A DNA stretch of 64,000 bases. Source: Ketogulonicigenium robustum (GTDB lineage Bacteria; Pseudomonadota; Alphaproteobacteria; Rhodobacterales; Rhodobacteraceae). Each line of letters begins with the position of its first letter. Position 1 is the stretch's first letter. This document shows positions 2,853-36,457 of the stretch, one piece after another. The position numbers and the translations under genes are program-made. Below the pieces are notes generated by a model. The model saw only the letters and a list, made by a program, of their open reading frames with translations, was not told the DNA's origin and did no database searches. Location of the stretch: the NCBI RefSeq assembly GCF_002117445.1, contig NZ_CP019937.1:1365501-1429500 (forward strand), read 5' to 3'.

Positions 2853-3683
2853 TTAATGCGAAAAAATCAGGTTCCGGTCGCGCCCGTCCATATCTTTGCG
2901 CAAGCCGGTGCACCGCAGCCCTGCTGCCAGCCCAATCGCGCGGACGGCTTCTGCCTGTGTTGGCCCGAATTCAACGATAATGCGGCCCTGCGGTGCTAAC
3001 AGGCGCGGCGCATCGGCCAGTATCGCGCGGTAGGCCGCCAGCCCATCGCCGCCATCGGTCAGCGCCATGTCCGGCTCCCACGCGGTGACATCAGGGGCGA
3101 GGGTCGGCATTTCGTCCAGCGCGATGTAGGGCGGGTTCGAGACGATCAAATCGAACGGGCCAACAACTGCCGCGCCCCAGTCCGACAGGATGAACTGCGC
3201 GCGCGCCTGCAGGCCCAGCTGCACGGCGTTATCCTGCGCTACGGCCAAAGCGGCGGGCGACAGATCAACCCCCACGCCTGTGGCGCTGGGTTGTTCGGAC
3301 AGCAAGGTCAGCAAGATACAGCCCGATCCGGTCCCGATATCCAGCACGCGGGTGAACGGTGCCTCTAGCGCGGCGGCGACCAACTCCTCGGTCTCGGGGC
3401 GCGGGTCCAGCACATCGCGCGTGACGCGAAAGCTACGCCCGTAAAACAACCGCCGCCCGAGGATTTGCGCCATCGGCTGGCGGGCCGCACGCTGATCGAC
3501 AAAGCCTTGAAACCGCGCGGCAGTGTCTACCGTCACGGGATCGGGCAAGACCAAGGTCAGGCGTGCCGCGGCGATGCCCAACGCTTCGGCCAGCAATAGG
3601 CGCGCATCGCGGGGCGCATCCTCGACCCCTGCCGCGCGCAACTGCAGCACAGCCGCGCGGATCAGGTCGTTGCCGCTTGTCAC
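2853..3683 (-). CDS. prmC: Release factor glutamine methyltransferase PrmC/HemK
   Basis: A 276-residue methyltransferase that N5-methylates the glutamine of the GGQ motif in release factors RF1 and RF2. Visible motifs are [10 protein letters not shown] near residue 93, the SAM loop [11 protein letters not shown] near residue 115, and the catalytic NPPYIALDE near residue 183. The start is GTG at 3683. It overlaps the prfA stop by 4 bases, so it is translationally coupled to its own substrate's gene, as in many bacteria. Confidence 0.95.
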
Positions 3684-4738
3684 AGCTGCGCCATCTCGGC
3701 CAGCAAGGTGGCCTGCGCATCCGCGACCAGCGCGTCGACGATCTCGTCCAGATCGCCCTGCAGGATCTGGTCCAGCCGATACAGCGTCAGGTTGATGCGG
3801 TGGTCAGTCATACGGCCTTGAGGGAAGTTGTAGGTGCGAATGCGTTCACTGCGATCACCCGAGCCTACCTGCGCCTTGCGGTCAGCCGAACGCGCGCCAT
3901 CGACGCGGCTGCGCTCCAAATCATAAAGGCGCGCGCGCAGCACATCCATCGCCAGCTCGCGGTTGCGGTGCTGCGATTTTTGCGAGCTGGTCACGATAAT
4001 GCCGGTGGGAATGTGCGTGATGCGCACCGCCGAATCCGTCGTATTGACGTGCTGCCCCCCCGCACCCGAGGCGCGCATCGTATCAATACGAATATCTTGC
4101 GGGCTGATTTCGATGTCGACGGCTTCAGCCTCGGGCAGCACGGCCACTGTTGCAGCCGATGTATGGATGCGCCCGCCACTTTCGGTTTCGGGCACACGCT
4201 GCACGCGGTGCACGCCAGATTCGTACTTCATGCGGGCAAAGACGCCCTCGCCCTCGATCCGCACGACGACTTCTTTGATGCCGCCCAGCTCGGTCGTCTG
4301 CTCCTCGATGATCTCAAACCGCCAACCTTTGGCTTCGGAATAACGTTGATACATCCGCAGCAGGTCGGCGGCGAACAGCGATGCTTCGTCGCCGCCGGTT
4401 CCGGGGCGGATTTCCAGCATCGCGGGGCGTGCGTCGGCCGCGTCACGTGGCAGCAGCGCCTTTTGCATCGCCAGCTCGGCCTCGGCAAAGGCGCTGCGCA
4501 GTTGCGGCAGCTCTTCCTCGGCCAGTGCCCGCATGTCCGGGTCGGTCAGCCATTCCTCGGCACTGGCCAGATCCGCCTCGAGCTGGCGGTAATGGTTCAG
4601 GGTTTCGACCACGGGCTTCAGCTCGGAATATTCGCGGCCAAGGCTGGCAATTTCCGCGCCCGACAGGCCGGATTGCATCTTGGCCTCCAGAAACTGGAAG
4701 CGATCGGTCAGTTGGGCAAGTTTTTCCGCAGGTATCAT
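3680..4738 (-). CDS. prfA: Peptide chain release factor 1
   Basis: A 352-residue class I release factor that reads UAA/UAG stop codons. The catalytic GGQ is in the segment [16 protein letters not shown] near residue 230. The tripeptide anticodon region reads VPETESGGR: the usual PxT pattern is kept with Glu in the middle, where E. coli has Ala. Length is normal and the start is ATG at 4738. It is the first gene of the prfA-prmC unit, and the P-loop gene at 4842 diverges from it across 103 bases. Confidence 0.96.
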
Positions 4739-4841
4739 GGCGCTTCAATGCCCGTAGCCACGGGGCGGGTCAAGCGTGCGCAGACTTGACGCGCTGCTGC
4801 GGGGGCGGCACACCTGAACCACAACGCCCGAGGGAGCCGCC

Positions 4842-5702
4842 ATGATCTATGATTCCGCCCAAAGCTGGCGCGATGCGCCGCAAAAGCGCGTGTTGTTCTT
4901 TGGCATGTCAGGCCTTGGCAAAACGCATGTCAGCCAAATCCTGCGCGATCAGGGCGACTGGTTCCACTACTCGATCGATTATCGCATCGGTACACGTTAT
5001 CTGGGCGAGGAAATCGCCGATAACGCCAAGCGCGAGGCGATGAAAAACCCCTACCTGCGCGAGTTGTTGATGAGCGATTCGATCTATATCGCCTCGAACA
5101 TCACCTTTGCGAACCTGAAGCCGGTTTCGATGTGGCTGGGAAAGCCTGGCGACGTGACCAAAGGCGGCCTGCCCTTCGCCGAATACCAACGCCGCCAGAC
5201 CATGTTCCGGCGGGCCGAGGAAGCCGCCCTGCTGGATACGCCCCATTTTATTGATCGCGCGCACGCCATATACGGCTATCCTCATTTCATCTGCGATACC
5301 GGCGGTTCGATCTGCGAATGGGTTGACCCGAATGACCCGGACGACCCCGTGCTGACCGCCCTGTCGCGCAACACGTTGATGGTCTGGATCAAGGGCAGCG
5401 ACGCGCACACCGCCGAACTGGTGCGGCGCTTTGACCGCGCGCCGAAGCCCATGGCCTATCAGCCCGCGTTTTTGGCCCGCAAATGGGATGAATATCTGGC
5501 CTTGCGCGCCATTGCGCCCGATGCCGTCGACCCCGACGATTTCATCCGCTGGACTTATGCCCAAGCGCTGGCGCACCGGCAGCCTTTGTATCAGGCAATG
5601 GCCGACAACTGGGGCGTGACCGTCACCGCCGAAGATATCGCCGCCGTGCGCAGCGCCGCCGATTTCGATGATCTGATCGCAGCAGTGCTTGACGCGCGTT
5701 AA
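4842..5702 (+). CDS. P-loop NTP-binding protein of unknown function
   Basis: A 286-residue soluble protein with a clear Walker A motif, GMSGLGKT (residues 21-28), right after a hydrophobic beta strand (RVLFFG). A strong Shine-Dalgarno (AGGGAG) supports the ATG at 4842. Other features are the segment [15 protein letters not shown] in mid-protein, which could hold a Walker B-like strand, and a C-terminal helical part with many Asp and Ala. There is no signal peptide or membrane segment. The fold may be kinase-like or dephospho-CoA-kinase-like, but I do not recognise a named family. It sits upstream of metA in the same direction, 86 bases apart; any link to methionine synthesis is unproven. Confidence 0.7.
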
Positions 5703-16771: not shown

Positions 16772-17857
16772 TCAGCCGACTTTCGGGGCGAACGCCCCGA
16801 ACGCGTCGCGATAATGCGCGGCCAGCCGCTCCAACGCGATTTTCAGCACGACTTTTCCTGACCGTGCAGCCCATCCGTTGCGGCGCTCGATCACCTCGAT
16901 CCCTTCAAGATGGCAGCAACATTGCAGCGCCACATCGCCCAGGCCCGGCCCCAGCGCGCGCAGTGCGGCCGTCAAGCGGCGGCGTGCGTCGATGGCCGCA
17001 ATAGGCCCGCCTGCGGCAAACACACGGCTGTCGGCGGGCCCTGTCAAGAAACGCGCCCAATCCTGCGCGCCGCCGGGGCCCATATTCGCCAGCTCAAAAT
17101 CTTCACGCAATCTCTCACCTATGCTTATCAAATCTTTGGAAAGATATGGATTTCCGTCATAGTCTTTCCGACGTCCCAGTGCAGCCAGCGGGCTTGCCCC
17201 CATGACGCTGCGAAAGTGGCTCAGGCGCGGGGCACCGTCCTCCAGTTCGGGCAAAGGCGCGCGTCCCGCAGCCTTCAACTGCCGCAAATGCGCCTTCCCC
17301 GTGGTCGAAATACGATAGCGCGCGACGCGCGCGGCGGGGGCGTCACTGGTAATCCAGTTTTGCAGCACCAACCGTTCAGCCACCGCGCGCGGCACCACGG
17401 CAATGCGTGTGGGCGATTGGCCTGCCGCACTCTCGCGCACCAGAATGCCTTTCTCCATCTCGGCGGCCAGCGCCAGCGCCACGCCTGATTCCGCCATACG
17501 GTTCAAAATCCGCATGGTTTCAGCATCGTGAAAGCTGCCCTCGGCGGCCGCGGCGCGCGTTTTAGGGGGGGCCGCGCGCGTCTTACGCACCAACCCCGCC
17601 GCAACGGCTGCGGGGTCGCGCGCGAGGCTGCGCAGCGCTGTGTCGATCAGCGGGTCGTCGCGCTCCATCTCGACCTTGCGGATCTGACGCAGAATGGTCG
17701 AGGGGTGCACCTGCGCCTCGCGGGCGATTTCGCGGATGGGTTTGCCGTCCTCGGTATGTGCCAGATAATGCCGCGCCGCAGTGGGCAGCCACAGAGGCCA
17801 GACGGCCTCGTCCTCATGGCCATGCTCTGCGTGGCGTTGCATTTCGATACTGCCCAT
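16772..17857 (-). CDS. DUF6456 domain-containing protein with N-terminal helix-turn-helix
   Basis: A 361-residue protein. An N-terminal HTH is visible (GKPIREIAREAQVHPSTILR, about residues 38-57), of the kind that reads DNA. A middle segment with IAVVPRAVAERLVLQNWI resembles a second winged-helix-like part. The C-terminal half (LSHFRSVMGASPLAALGRRK onward) is the DUF6456 domain, which has an RLREDFELANMGP segment. The ATG at 17857 is preceded by GGAAGGG and is preferred to 17896. It diverges from DUF6477-guaA across a 230-base region with repeats that may be its operator. A regulator is likely but unproven. Confidence 0.85.
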   Translation of the reverse strand: MGSIEMQRHAEHGHEDEAVWPLWLPTAARHYLAHTEDGKPIREIAREAQVHPSTILRQIRKVEMERDDPLIDTALRSLARDPAAVAAGLVRKTRAAPPKTRAAAAEGSFHDAETMRILNRMAESGVALALAAEMEKGILVRESAAGQSPTRIAVVPRAVAERLVLQNWITSDAPAARVARYRISTTGKAHLRQLKAAGRAPLPELEDGAPRLSHFRSVMGASPLAALGRRKDYDGNPYLSKDLISIGERLREDFELANMGPGGAQDWARFLTGPADSRVFAAGGPIAAIDARRRLTAALRALGPGLGDVALQCCCHLEGIEVIERRNGWAARSGKVVLKIALERLAAHYRDAFGAFAPKVG

Positions 17858-17912
17858 CGCGTTACCCTTCCGTCCGGCGTTGCGAAACCTGTTCACTGCA
17901 GGCCTTCACCAC

Positions 17913-17944
17913 AACCAAGAGGAGAATTGGTTACCTATTGGTTA
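17913..17944. promoter_or_regulatory. Operator-like repeats in the DUF6456/DUF6477 divergent promoter
   Basis: AACCAA (17913-17918) is inverted against TTGGTT (17927-17932), and the unit TTGGTTA occurs twice (17927-17933 and 17938-17944) with an 11-base period, one helical turn. The second copy overlaps the -35 region of the promoter reading toward DUF6477-guaA. This is the pattern of a repressor or activator site. The divergently encoded HTH protein is the obvious candidate ligand; that link is inference. Confidence 0.5.
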
Positions 17945-17968
17945 ATAGAAGGCACTGGATCATATAAT
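17938..17968 (+). promoter_or_regulatory. Promoter for the DUF6477-guaA unit
   Basis: A perfect TATAAT (17963-17968) sits in a markedly AT-rich stretch. Upstream, TTGGTT (17938-17943, 19-base spacer) or TGGTTA (18-base spacer) can serve as the -35. The predicted leader to the ATG at 18088 is about 110 bases, which is long and may carry structure. Confidence 0.6.
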
Positions 17969-18087
17969 TATTTCCAAATTCTAAAGACTAGCTACACAAT
18001 CGGACGTTGCATTGCGCCATCCCGCAACGGCAGCTGCATCATGGCATCTTGGGGGCAACTTGAAACCCGCTATCCCCAGGAATCCCC

Positions 18088-18444
18088 ATGTTAGACACCA
18101 CACCCGCCCCCCGCCACCCGCTGCTGACACGCGTCGCCGCGCTGCGCCGCCCCGCCCTTTTGGCCAGCGCCGCCCGCTTTGGCCGCGAGGATTACTGCCG
18201 CGCAACCCACCTGCCCCGCTTGCTGCACCGCATGACACCGCCACCCCCCGCCGTCGCACTCGCGGCGCTGATCGAGATGGAGGACGCCGCGAATACCGCT
18301 CGCCGGCAGGGCGATGCGACCTATGTGATTTCGGCCCATGTTGCCCTTTTGTCGGCGCTGGTGGCCGAGGCAGGTCAACTTACCGCAGATCTACACGCGG
18401 CAGCGGCCCAAACAGCCCTTGAAAGGCAACCGGATGCGGCCTAA
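18088..18444 (+). CDS. DUF6477 family protein
   Basis: A 118-residue helical protein, rich in Ala, Leu and Arg. The middle segment RFGREDYCRATHLPRLLHR and the following EDAANTARRQGDATY are the recognisable DUF6477 core. No signal peptide, membrane helix or catalytic motif is visible. The family is typical of Rhodobacteraceae and lies beside a DUF6456 gene here. guaA follows after 9 bases in the same direction. Function is unknown. Confidence 0.8.
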   Translation: MLDTTPAPRHPLLTRVAALRRPALLASAARFGREDYCRATHLPRLLHRMTPPPPAVALAALIEMEDAANTARRQGDATYVISAHVALLSALVAEAGQLTADLHAAAAQTALERQPDAA

Positions 18445-18453
18445 AGCCAGCCC

Positions 18454-20010
18454 ATGACACATCATGATCGCCTCCTCATCATCGACTTTGGCAGCCAGGT
18501 GACGCAGCTGATCGCGCGCCGCCTGCGCGAGTTGAATGTCTACTGCGAAATTCACCCCTACCAGAACGTCACCGACCAGTTCCTGCAGGACTTTGCACCC
18601 AAAGCGGTGATCCTGTCGGGCGGGCCCGACAGCGTGACGCGCGACGGTAGCCCCCGCGCGCCGGAAAGCCTCTGGGGCTTTGGCGTGCCTGTGCTGGGCA
18701 TCTGCTATGGCCAGCAAACCATGATGACCCAGCTGGGCGGCAAGGTTGAACGTGGCCACGGCACCGCCGAATTCGGTCGTGCCTTTGTGACGCCCGCGGC
18801 CGACCAGTTGTCGATCCTTGACGGCTGGTTTGCCGACGGCAACGAACAAGTCTGGATGAGCCACGGCGACCACGTCAGCCAGATCGCCCCGGGCTTCAAG
18901 GTTTACGGCACATCGCCGAATGCACCCTTCGCCATTACCGGCGATGTCGCGCGCAACTTCTACGCCGTGCAGTTCCACCCCGAGGTGCACCACACCCCCA
19001 AGGGCGCAAAGCTGTACGAAAACTTCGTGCGCCTTGCAGGCTTTACCGGCGATTGGACGATGGCCGGCTACCGCGAGCAAGCGATCCAGCAGATCCGCGA
19101 ACAGGTTGGCGACAAGCAGGTCATCTGCGCGCTTTCGGGCGGCGTCGACAGTTCGGTCACGGCTATTTTGATTAACGAGGCGATCGGCGACCAGCTGACC
19201 TGCGTCTTTGTCGACACCGGGCTGCTGCGCAAAAACGAGGCCGAGGAAGTCACGCGGATGTTCCGCGAAAGCTACAACCTCAACCTAATCGCGGCTGACG
19301 AAAGCGACCTGTTCCTCGGCGCGCTGGAAGGCGTGACCGACCCCGAGGTGAAGCGTAAAACGATCGGCCGCCTGTTTATCGAGGTCTTCGATAAATACGC
19401 CGCGCAAATCGACGGCGCCGAATTCCTCGCCCAAGGCACCCTCTACCCCGACGTGATCGAATCGGTCAGCTTCTCGGGCGGGCCGTCGGTGACGATCAAA
19501 TCGCACCACAACGTGGGCGGTTTGCCGGAAAAGATGGGCCTGAAACTGGTCGAGCCCCTGCGCGAGCTGTTCAAGGACGAGGTCCGCGCGCTGGGACGCG
19601 AGTTGGGCCTGCCCGAGCAGTTCATCCGCCGCCATCCCTTCCCCGGCCCCGGCCTTGCGATTCGCTGCCCCGGCGAAGTGACCCGCGAAAAGCTGGAAAT
19701 CCTGCGCAATGCCGATGCGGTCTATCTGGACCAAATCCGCAAGCACGGCCTGTACGACGAAATCTGGCAAGCATTCGTTGCGATCCTGCCGGTGCGTACG
19801 GTCGGGGTCATGGGCGATGGCCGCACATACGACTACGCCTGCGCGCTGCGCGCGGTGACATCTGTCGACGGCATGACCGCCGACTACTACCCCTACACGC
19901 ACGAATTCTTGGGCGAGACGGCGACCCGCATCATCAACGAAGTGCAGGGCATCAACCGCGTCACATACGACATCACGTCGAAGCCCCCCGGCACGATCGA
20001 GTGGGAATAA
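18454..20010 (+). CDS. guaA: GMP synthase (glutamine-hydrolysing)
   Basis: A 518-residue two-domain enzyme that converts XMP to GMP. The N-terminal class I amidotransferase has its catalytic Cys in GICYGQQTM (near residue 88) and the His-Glu in FHPEVHHTP. The ATP pyrophosphatase domain has the P-loop LSGGVDSS near residue 230. The C-terminal dimerisation domain ends in KPPGTIEWE, as in the family. Length is normal. A perfect 13-bp hairpin terminator follows directly. Confidence 0.97.
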
Positions 20011-36275: not shown

Positions 36276-36352
36276 TGGCGCGGTTGACGGGGCTCGAACC
36301 CGCGACCCCCGGCGTGACAGGCCGGTACTCTAACCGACTGAGCTACAACCGC
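36276..36352 (-). tRNA. tRNA-Asp (anticodon GTC), copy 1 of 2
   Basis: A 77-nucleotide cloverleaf. The acceptor arm is GCGGTTG/CAACCGC, the D-arm has the GTCGGTTAGA loop, the anticodon stem CCGGC/GCCGG surrounds CTGTCAC with GTC, and the T-arm holds GTTCGAGCC. The 3' CCA is encoded (36276-36278). It reads in the minus direction. It is identical to the copy at 36381-36457. Confidence 0.97.
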
Positions 36353-36380
36353 GCATCGTCCATTTCACAAAAGTCAGCAG

Positions 36381-36457
36381 TGGCGCGGTTGACGGGGCTC
36401 GAACCCGCGACCCCCGGCGTGACAGGCCGGTACTCTAACCGACTGAGCTACAACCGC
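36381..36457 (-). tRNA. tRNA-Asp (anticodon GTC), copy 2 of 2
   Basis: Identical in all 77 positions to the copy at 36276-36352, with encoded CCA. The two are separated by 28 bases, giving a 105-base repeat period. This copy is nearer the promoter and is first in the transcript, so a single precursor carrying both tRNAs is likely. Confidence 0.97.

Follow-up and report, generated by a model that had tools for sequence, protein, structure and literature searches.

Short repeats placed between two divergent genes raise the question of which regulator reads them and toward which gene, and such a case is found in the genome of Ketogulonicigenium robustum (contig NZ_CP019937.1), between the gene of a DUF6456 protein and a DUF6477 gene that is followed by guaA. 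The locus was analysed within a stretch of 64,000 nucleotides, hereafter the window. The original prediction had described a regulatory divergent promoter with an AACCAA/TTGGTT inverted repeat, a second TTGGTTA and a TATAAT hexamer, from which the DUF6456 protein might control itself and the purine gene guaA. All of these letters are present, with AACCAA at 17913-17918, TTGGTTA at 17927-17933 and again, with a period of 11, at 17938-17944, and TATAAT at 17963-17968, 19 bases past the TTGGTT of 17938-17943. The observation itself was confirmed and the regulatory character of the region is supported; the interpretation as a whole is partly supported. The genes and the central site are the following:

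16772 to 17857, minus strand: gafA, gene of a DUF6456 protein, homologue of the activator of gene transfer agents (GTA), 361 aa from the ATG at 17857 (PF20057, 174.4 bits, cut-off 26.3)
17930 to 17945, minus strand: CtrA box TTAACCAATAGGTAAC (TTAAC-N6-GTAAC), with the pattern of the EMSA-tested R. capsulatus gafA box (PMC6363796)
18088 to 18444, plus strand: DUF6477 gene, 118 aa, family of R. capsulatus rcc01866 (PF20083, 95.4 bits)
18454 to 20010, plus strand: guaA, GMP synthase (NF000848, 771.5 bits)

Reading the minus strand from 17945 to 17930 gives TTAAC-CAATAG-GTAAC, in which both TTGGTTA copies form the two halves of one site. Judged by its letters, the repeat pair is one CtrA box upstream of gafA, with the same pattern as the box of R. 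capsulatus. At the gafA promoter of the latter, CtrA is reported to bind TTAAC-N6-GTAAC with a Kd of 55 nM, half-site mutants show gene transfer at 10-22% of wild type, and the distance between box and gafA start codon is usually 65-71 bases (Fogg, 2019; PMC6363796). The window promoter resembles that of R. capsulatus gafA (rcc01865; PMC6363796) in the gene itself, the TTAAC-N6-GTAAC pattern, a nearly identical start distance (72 nt from the box to the ATG at 17857) and a divergent neighbour, and it adds another example of a CtrA site already known and characterised by experiment. Translation from a GTG in the same reading frame, at 17896 and thus 39 nt before the ATG, would give a protein of 374 aa; this codon is ATG in the congener (G001, L134), where the stretch between both codons is largely conserved. 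Thus, the gafA start codon may be this GTG, in which case the box would lie at 33 nt and outside the published range.

The letters are not rare in themselves. Single TTGGTTA copies are no rarity in the window (4 against 2.24 expected, a count reached by 19 of 100 shuffles), and the box pattern with at most one mismatch occurs once against 0.59 expected, which 45 of 100 shuffles equal, so that the box is not significant from the window alone. The 2.71-Mb genome as a whole contains no second exact copy; 30 sites lie within one mismatch and 72 match the reversed control pattern, and the CtrA motif is therefore not enriched genome-wide. The case for the box rests on its conservation at the gafA locus among relatives.

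This conservation was assessed in 111 loci, comprising the window, the 30 best DUF6477 matches in the family and the best 80 of at least 555 gafA relatives from one scan, which are not a random sample. With these best 80 of at least 555 included, the box was exact in 81 loci and carried one mismatch in 24, two in 3 and three or more in 3, i.e., at most one mismatch in 105 of the 111 gafA upstream regions; at four of these loci (L037, L048, L090 and L095) gafA was present and no box was recognisable in place. Shuffled upstream regions of the 80 gafA-found loci (best 80 of at least 555), scored for exact matches only, yielded the box in 0 of 1600 cases. Furthermore, an open search of the 30 DUF6477-found loci, allowing T or G first in each half on both strands, returned 21 sites, all of them TTAAC-N6-GTAAC directed toward gafA. 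The expected conservation of the repeats was thus borne out for the TTGGTTA pair, present as an exact box in 81 of the 111 loci (including the best 80 of at least 555), but not for the AACCAA/TTGGTT inverted repeat, which as such is not conserved in the 82 thinned promoters described below. The repeats had also been assigned to the -35 zone of a promoter toward DUF6477-guaA, an assignment that finds no support, as the box is directed toward gafA and its spacing to that gene is maintained.

The DUF6456 gene is, from its sequence, gafA, the activator of gene transfer agents. Its N-terminal HTH_38 domain scored 26.8 bits, just below the cut-off of 27, this N-terminal region is conserved in an alignment of 8 proteins, and the protein is approximately 40-53% identical to the DUF6456 proteins of relatives, with one partial match at 58%. 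BLAST matches of GafA have been reported as annotated DUF6456 or helix-turn-helix (PMC9638019). The same genome (G000) harbors an RcGTA-type cluster with terminase, portal, prohead protease and GTA_TIM, as well as a response-regulator ORF of 238 aa, named CtrA-like by similarity only, which is 52% identical to the DNA-binding part of a phage CtrA-like protein. The proposed restriction of DUF6456 to Rhodobacteraceae does not hold, as the family was found in 6 of 24 genomes from other families of the class and in one of 14 control genomes (Caulobacter), and gafA has been reported in 196 of 208 alphaproteobacterial genomes (PMC9765227). One scan of viral contigs gave no gafA relatives.

For DUF6477, the search covered the family plus 14 control genomes, with the gene in 174 of 198 and 0 of 14, respectively; a roseophage gene also matches. 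DUF6477 lies divergent to gafA in 78 of the 80 gafA-found loci (best 80 of at least 555) and in all 30 DUF6477-found loci. Among 36 family genomes (G000, G002-G036), 29 carried both genes, 2 gafA only, none DUF6477 only and 5 neither (Fisher p 5.6e-5, with relatedness not corrected for); the two gafA-only genomes are assemblies of 390 and 450 contigs. In R. capsulatus, rcc01866 is adjacent and divergent to gafA, and its mutant produced immature particles with lysis not detectable; its authors reported that they could predict no function (PMC9638019). Homologues of gafA and rcc01866 with a CtrA-like gene between them have been described in roseophage RDJL Phi 1 (Fogg, PMC6363796), where we found gp38 (DUF6456), gp37 (Trans_reg_C) and gp36 (DUF6477; 30.5 bits to PF20083, above the cut-off of 25) in a row at 2983-4977 (L135). 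This cassette is like the window in bringing DUF6456, CtrA-like and DUF6477 functions side by side, and unlike it in that all three genes run in the same direction with ctrA between. Because DUF6477 is the divergent neighbour of gafA and the phage gene in the place of the rcc01866 homologue matches PF20083, DUF6477 was taken as the rcc01866 family, an assignment made through gene position and the phage gene and not through the R. capsulatus sequence. Its structure comprises five helices (mean pLDDT 89.5), and neither a solved structure (E value of at most 0.001) nor a PHROG matched it; lacking such a structural match, the fold gives no function, and the literature searched held no paper on DUF6477 by name.

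The position of guaA, directly behind DUF6477 here, is unusual when compared with the R. capsulatus gafA locus. The gap from the DUF6477 stop to the guaA ATG is 9 nt in the window (18444-18454) and in the congener G001, and in 75 of the 76 gafA-found loci with both genes (best 80 of at least 555) guaA begins approximately 1.7-5 kb after the DUF6477 match ends, the remaining one being L108 with 229 nt. In the 30 DUF6477-found loci, which reach 1.5 kb past DUF6477, guaA was close in one (L014); in L057 it stands near gafA with the DUF6477 match absent, and in L031 a long ORF of the opposite strand separates DUF6477 from guaA. Since guaA was seen close by only in the window, the congener, L108 and L014, a connection to purine synthesis is not a feature that this promoter has conserved; guaA is, on this comparison, incidental to it, and the claim that guaA is a target finds no support. 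In the window itself, an effect on guaA by read-through from the DUF6477 side could occur, and this essential purine gene may be exposed in this genome to a GTA-linked promoter. An Rfam scan of the window at gathering thresholds gave only two tRNAs, so that no listed riboswitch explains the guaA leader; these tRNA genes stand in tandem on the minus strand at 36279-36457, with identical Rfam scores of 69.8 bits each.

These data also bear on the proposal that the TTGGTTA repeats are an operator of the DUF6456 protein, through which it would regulate itself and DUF6477-guaA. The self-regulatory part has a counterpart in R. capsulatus, where GafA binds its own promoter region and gafA is autoregulated (PMC6363796, PMC9638019), but the repeats match a CtrA box, bound by CtrA in that species (PMC6363796), and not a known DUF6456 site. 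Of three 50-bp fragments taken from the region ahead of the start codon, GafA-C was moreover reported to bind the third (PMC9638019); because three such fragments cover 150 bases, we read fragment 3 as lying 100-150 nt upstream and beyond the box. With guaA seldom a close neighbour as well, we regard this operator as highly improbable.

The reading that we hold with high confidence is that the window contains the gafA promoter of a GTA-bearing genome, in which the repeats are one CtrA box and CtrA, together with feedback from GafA, would turn on gafA and in turn the GTA head-tail genes. The identity of the box and its conservation, the gene families, the ctrA-like gene and the GTA cluster were obtained here; CtrA binding and control in this organism are inferred from R. 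capsulatus. By this analogy, which gives it good support, CtrA would open gafA through the minus-strand box, GafA feedback would join CtrA in turning on gafA, and GafA would then switch on the GTA head-tail genes. An otherwise anonymous promoter would in this way be tied to the switch of gene transfer agents, through which these bacteria exchange genes.

The region between gafA and DUF6477 contains further elements, which were located relative to the box:

17910 to 17918, minus strand: TTGGTTGTG (family consensus TAGGTTGTG), likely gafA -10 at fixed spacing to the box, including the AACCAA arm
17967 to 17987, minus strand: diverged palindromic block TCTTTAGAATTTGGAAATAAT, 16 of 21 to the consensus TGTTTATCTTTTGGAAACAAT, a conserved island between window and congener
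18001 to 18006, no strand assigned: CGNNCG, here CGGACG, a palindromic core in 71 of 82 promoters and a candidate target for the C-terminal DUF6456 domain of GafA
18023 to 18033, plus strand: CGCAACGGCAG (consensus CGCAACACCCG, with GTTGCG in gafA orientation), a second candidate site for GafA, with conserved GTTGC

To obtain these, 107 loci were registered on the box, leaving out the four loci with no box in place, and were thinned to 82 promoters whose ungapped identity over 200 nt stays below 70%. As the register uses the box, its conservation in the resulting profile is by construction, and that of the other blocks is not. Downstream of the box, columns 40 to 109 counted from its start had a mean information of 0.086 bits and a maximum of 0.405, a value exceeded by 62 of the 170 columns from -130 to 39, box included. 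The window and its congener share islands at GTTGC, CGNNCG, the palindrome, the CtrA box and the gafA-strand TAGGTTGTG.

On the gafA strand, TAGGTTGTG with at most two mismatches was found in 57 of the 82 thinned promoters (1-6 of 82 in control windows), and 60 of the 69 promoters having it at up to three mismatches carry a copy at +27 from the box start. The AACCAA arm aligns with this block, which reads TAGGTT in most relatives; the window has TTGGTTG, a version of the TAGGTT element, with A in place of T in 72 of 82 promoters. TAGGTT retains the T, A and T of a -10 and would set the box at about -39 to -24. The conserved TTGGTTGTG, 11 nt downstream of the box, is therefore likely the gafA -10, its position being inferred; if so, the box would stand near -35, where activating CtrA sites are located in Caulobacter, as stated in PMC6180460. 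From RNA-seq in R. capsulatus, gafA transcription was reported to begin on the box, about 87 nt before the start codon (PMC6363796), which does not fit a -10 downstream of the box; alignments of the 82 thinned promoters showed no conserved -10 just upstream of it. A second copy of TAGGTTGTG, on the DUF6477 strand near -90, was present with at most two mismatches in 51 of 82 promoters (control windows 1-6 of 82), and the element thus faces outward on both strands in most of the 82, this copy being degenerate in the window itself.

That degenerate copy favours another possibility, in which TATAAT (17963-17968) and the TTGGTT at 17938 form a housekeeping promoter toward DUF6477-guaA in this genus. 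Such a promoter would have a perfect -10 hexamer and would serve guaA, which needs a promoter somewhere with only 9 nt between it and DUF6477, but its spacer to a poor -35 is 19 bases long, and TATAAT, which overlaps the edge of the palindromic block by two bases, is not conserved in the 82 thinned promoters and reads CATAAT in the congener. We consider it unlikely. Slightly less doubtful, and still improbable in our view, is that the single CtrA box works both ways and activates DUF6477 as well. CtrA boxes in short divergent regions are known from the fla2 promoters of R. sphaeroides, where one box serves both fliF2 and fliL2 and two boxes stand at flgB2/fliI2 (PMC6180460), and in D. shibae predicted CtrA sites have been listed for both gafA and Dshi_1585, the rcc01866 homologue (PMC6473078). 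Unlike the fla2 arrangements, the window has one box that points toward gafA; this single polarity, and the distance of approximately 90 nt between the box and the likely DUF6477 -10 (TAGGTTGTG), with other blocks in between, argue against a two-way box.

Three blocks occupy this interval. In 78 of the 82 thinned promoters, the start of the best match to TGTTTATCTTTTGGAAACAAT falls between -43 and -40 relative to the box. CGNNCG was found at -68 to -50, in gafA orientation, in 71 of 82, against 0-14 in windows away from there, and GTTGC near -83 in all 82, against 0-4 in controls, extended to GTGTTGC in 63. The distance from GTTGC to CGNNCG was 22 nt in 61 of the 71 promoters, counting the copy nearest this spacing when several CGNNCG occur. 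In R. capsulatus, the flanks of the box have been called otherwise divergent, from an alignment with 14 other species (Fogg, PMC6363796), and the further blocks in the 82 promoters set our results apart from that description. This set of additional blocks, of which two return in GTA promoters, appears to be new with respect to the published text.

For the recurrence, 51 GTA upstream regions were compared, with 2 left out as too short. TTGAC-N4-CGNNCG occurred in 30 of the 51, and every other spacing from 0 to 20 in at most 5; one of the 30 matches (L185) lies inside the terminase reading frame, which leaves 29 candidate promoters. As background, CGNNCG stood at that offset in 1 of 48 promoter-like TTGAC-N16..18-TA sequences of the gafA-found loci. 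Of the 30 GTA matches, 14 had GTTGCG or CGCAAC in the stretch from 45 to 10 nt ahead of CGNNCG, against 0-3 of 30 in ten control windows; its distance there is variable. In 21 of 28 GTA promoters CGNNCG lies 76-125 nt upstream of the first-ORF ATG, with the ORF called by a crude rule, and this is the interval reported as bound by GafA in R. capsulatus. The GTA promoter of this genome (L115/L166) has CGCACG 2 nt after TTGCC, unlike the N4 spacing after TTGAC. Genome-wide, TTGAC-N4-CGNNCG-ST-N6-TA gave 12 matches in 9 of 21 genomes, 7 of them at 430-890 nt before the GTA terminase and one at tRNA-Leu. This tRNA-Leu promoter (L255/L262, genome G002) was found by the pattern itself, and since it shares the TTGAC-N4-CGNNCG arrangement, the latter is not exclusive to GTA genes. 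The composite GGTGTTGC-N17-CGNNCG, tried as a regulon finder, gave 75 matches in 37 genomes against 47 for the reversed control, many of them recurrent, and is thus of little use alone.

A joint reading of these elements, to which we give an even chance, is that the gafA-DUF6477 region would be a compact switch, combining the CtrA box with a two-part GafA operator (CGNNCG/GTTGCG), and that DUF6477 would be a direct target of GafA, because GafA would act on the region through these two motifs. The operator would consist of CGNNCG and GTTGCG 22 nt apart here and with looser spacing in the GTA head-tail promoters; the DUF6456 domain of GafA would sit on CGNNCG and its N-terminal domain perhaps on GTTGCG, and GafA so bound would both act back on its own gene and drive DUF6477 directly. 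If fragment 3 of the R. capsulatus EMSA is the stretch from 100 to 150 nt before the start codon, it is expected from the conserved spacing to contain the palindrome with CGNNCG at its edge, and GTTGCG to fall outside all three fragments. The Caulobacter GafZ binding element (ZBE) offers a comparison, under the assumption that DUF6456 is the part of GafA that resembles GafZ: like it, CGNNCG is placed between the -35 and -10 of many Rhodobacteraceae GTA promoters, and unlike it, the sequence of CGNNCG differs from the GCGCCCG-CTGGCGC of the ZBE (Tran and Le, 2024; PMC11150451). CGNNCG between gafA and DUF6477 also lies outside the inferred -35/-10 of either gene, 35 nt upstream of the likely DUF6477 -10 and not in its spacer, and the arrangement there is therefore unlike that of a GTA promoter.

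The blocks beyond the box might instead be sites of other regulators, such as the quorum regulator GtaR, IHF or another protein, a possibility that we rate as appreciable and on balance doubtful. GtaR has been reported to bind the R. capsulatus gafA promoter, at a site not recognised there (PMC6363796), IHF is reported to co-activate gafYZ in Caulobacter, and both the tRNA-Leu promoter and the palindrome, which is missing from most GTA promoters, fit such regulators; GafA is favoured by the reappearance of CGNNCG, and less often of GTTGCG, in GTA promoters, within the stretch to which it binds in R. capsulatus. The palindrome TGTTTAT-TTTT-GAAACAAT is itself a candidate site of a separate regulator of the region. 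With one mismatch it was found in 4 of 31 genomes, three times at the gafA locus. As an operator shared by GTA promoters it was rejected: a weight-matrix scan placed 3 of 13 GTA upstream regions (L119, L129 and L131) above their own shuffle 95% level, all weakly, and none approached the gafA median of 24.7, the best scoring 10.1.

The blocks assigned to the two-part GafA operator provide concrete candidate sequences for how GafA finds promoters; in the 2022 GafA paper, the authors' own predicted DNA sequence was said to need confirmation, e.g., by systematic mutagenesis (PMC9638019). The same candidates give a testable reason for the participation of rcc01866 in the GTA programme, and GafA control of DUF6477, if true, would couple the decision to produce GTA to a gene of maturation and release.

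A G+C-rich stretch followed by a T-run was seen approximately 48-80 nt after CGNNCG in L115, L116, L195 and other GTA upstream loci, with T in 22-24 of 29 aligned GTA promoters at four positions, just past the inferred start of the head-tail transcript. Such a stretch in GTA leaders, which resembles an early terminator, would be in line with the anti-termination demonstrated for GafZ in Caulobacter.
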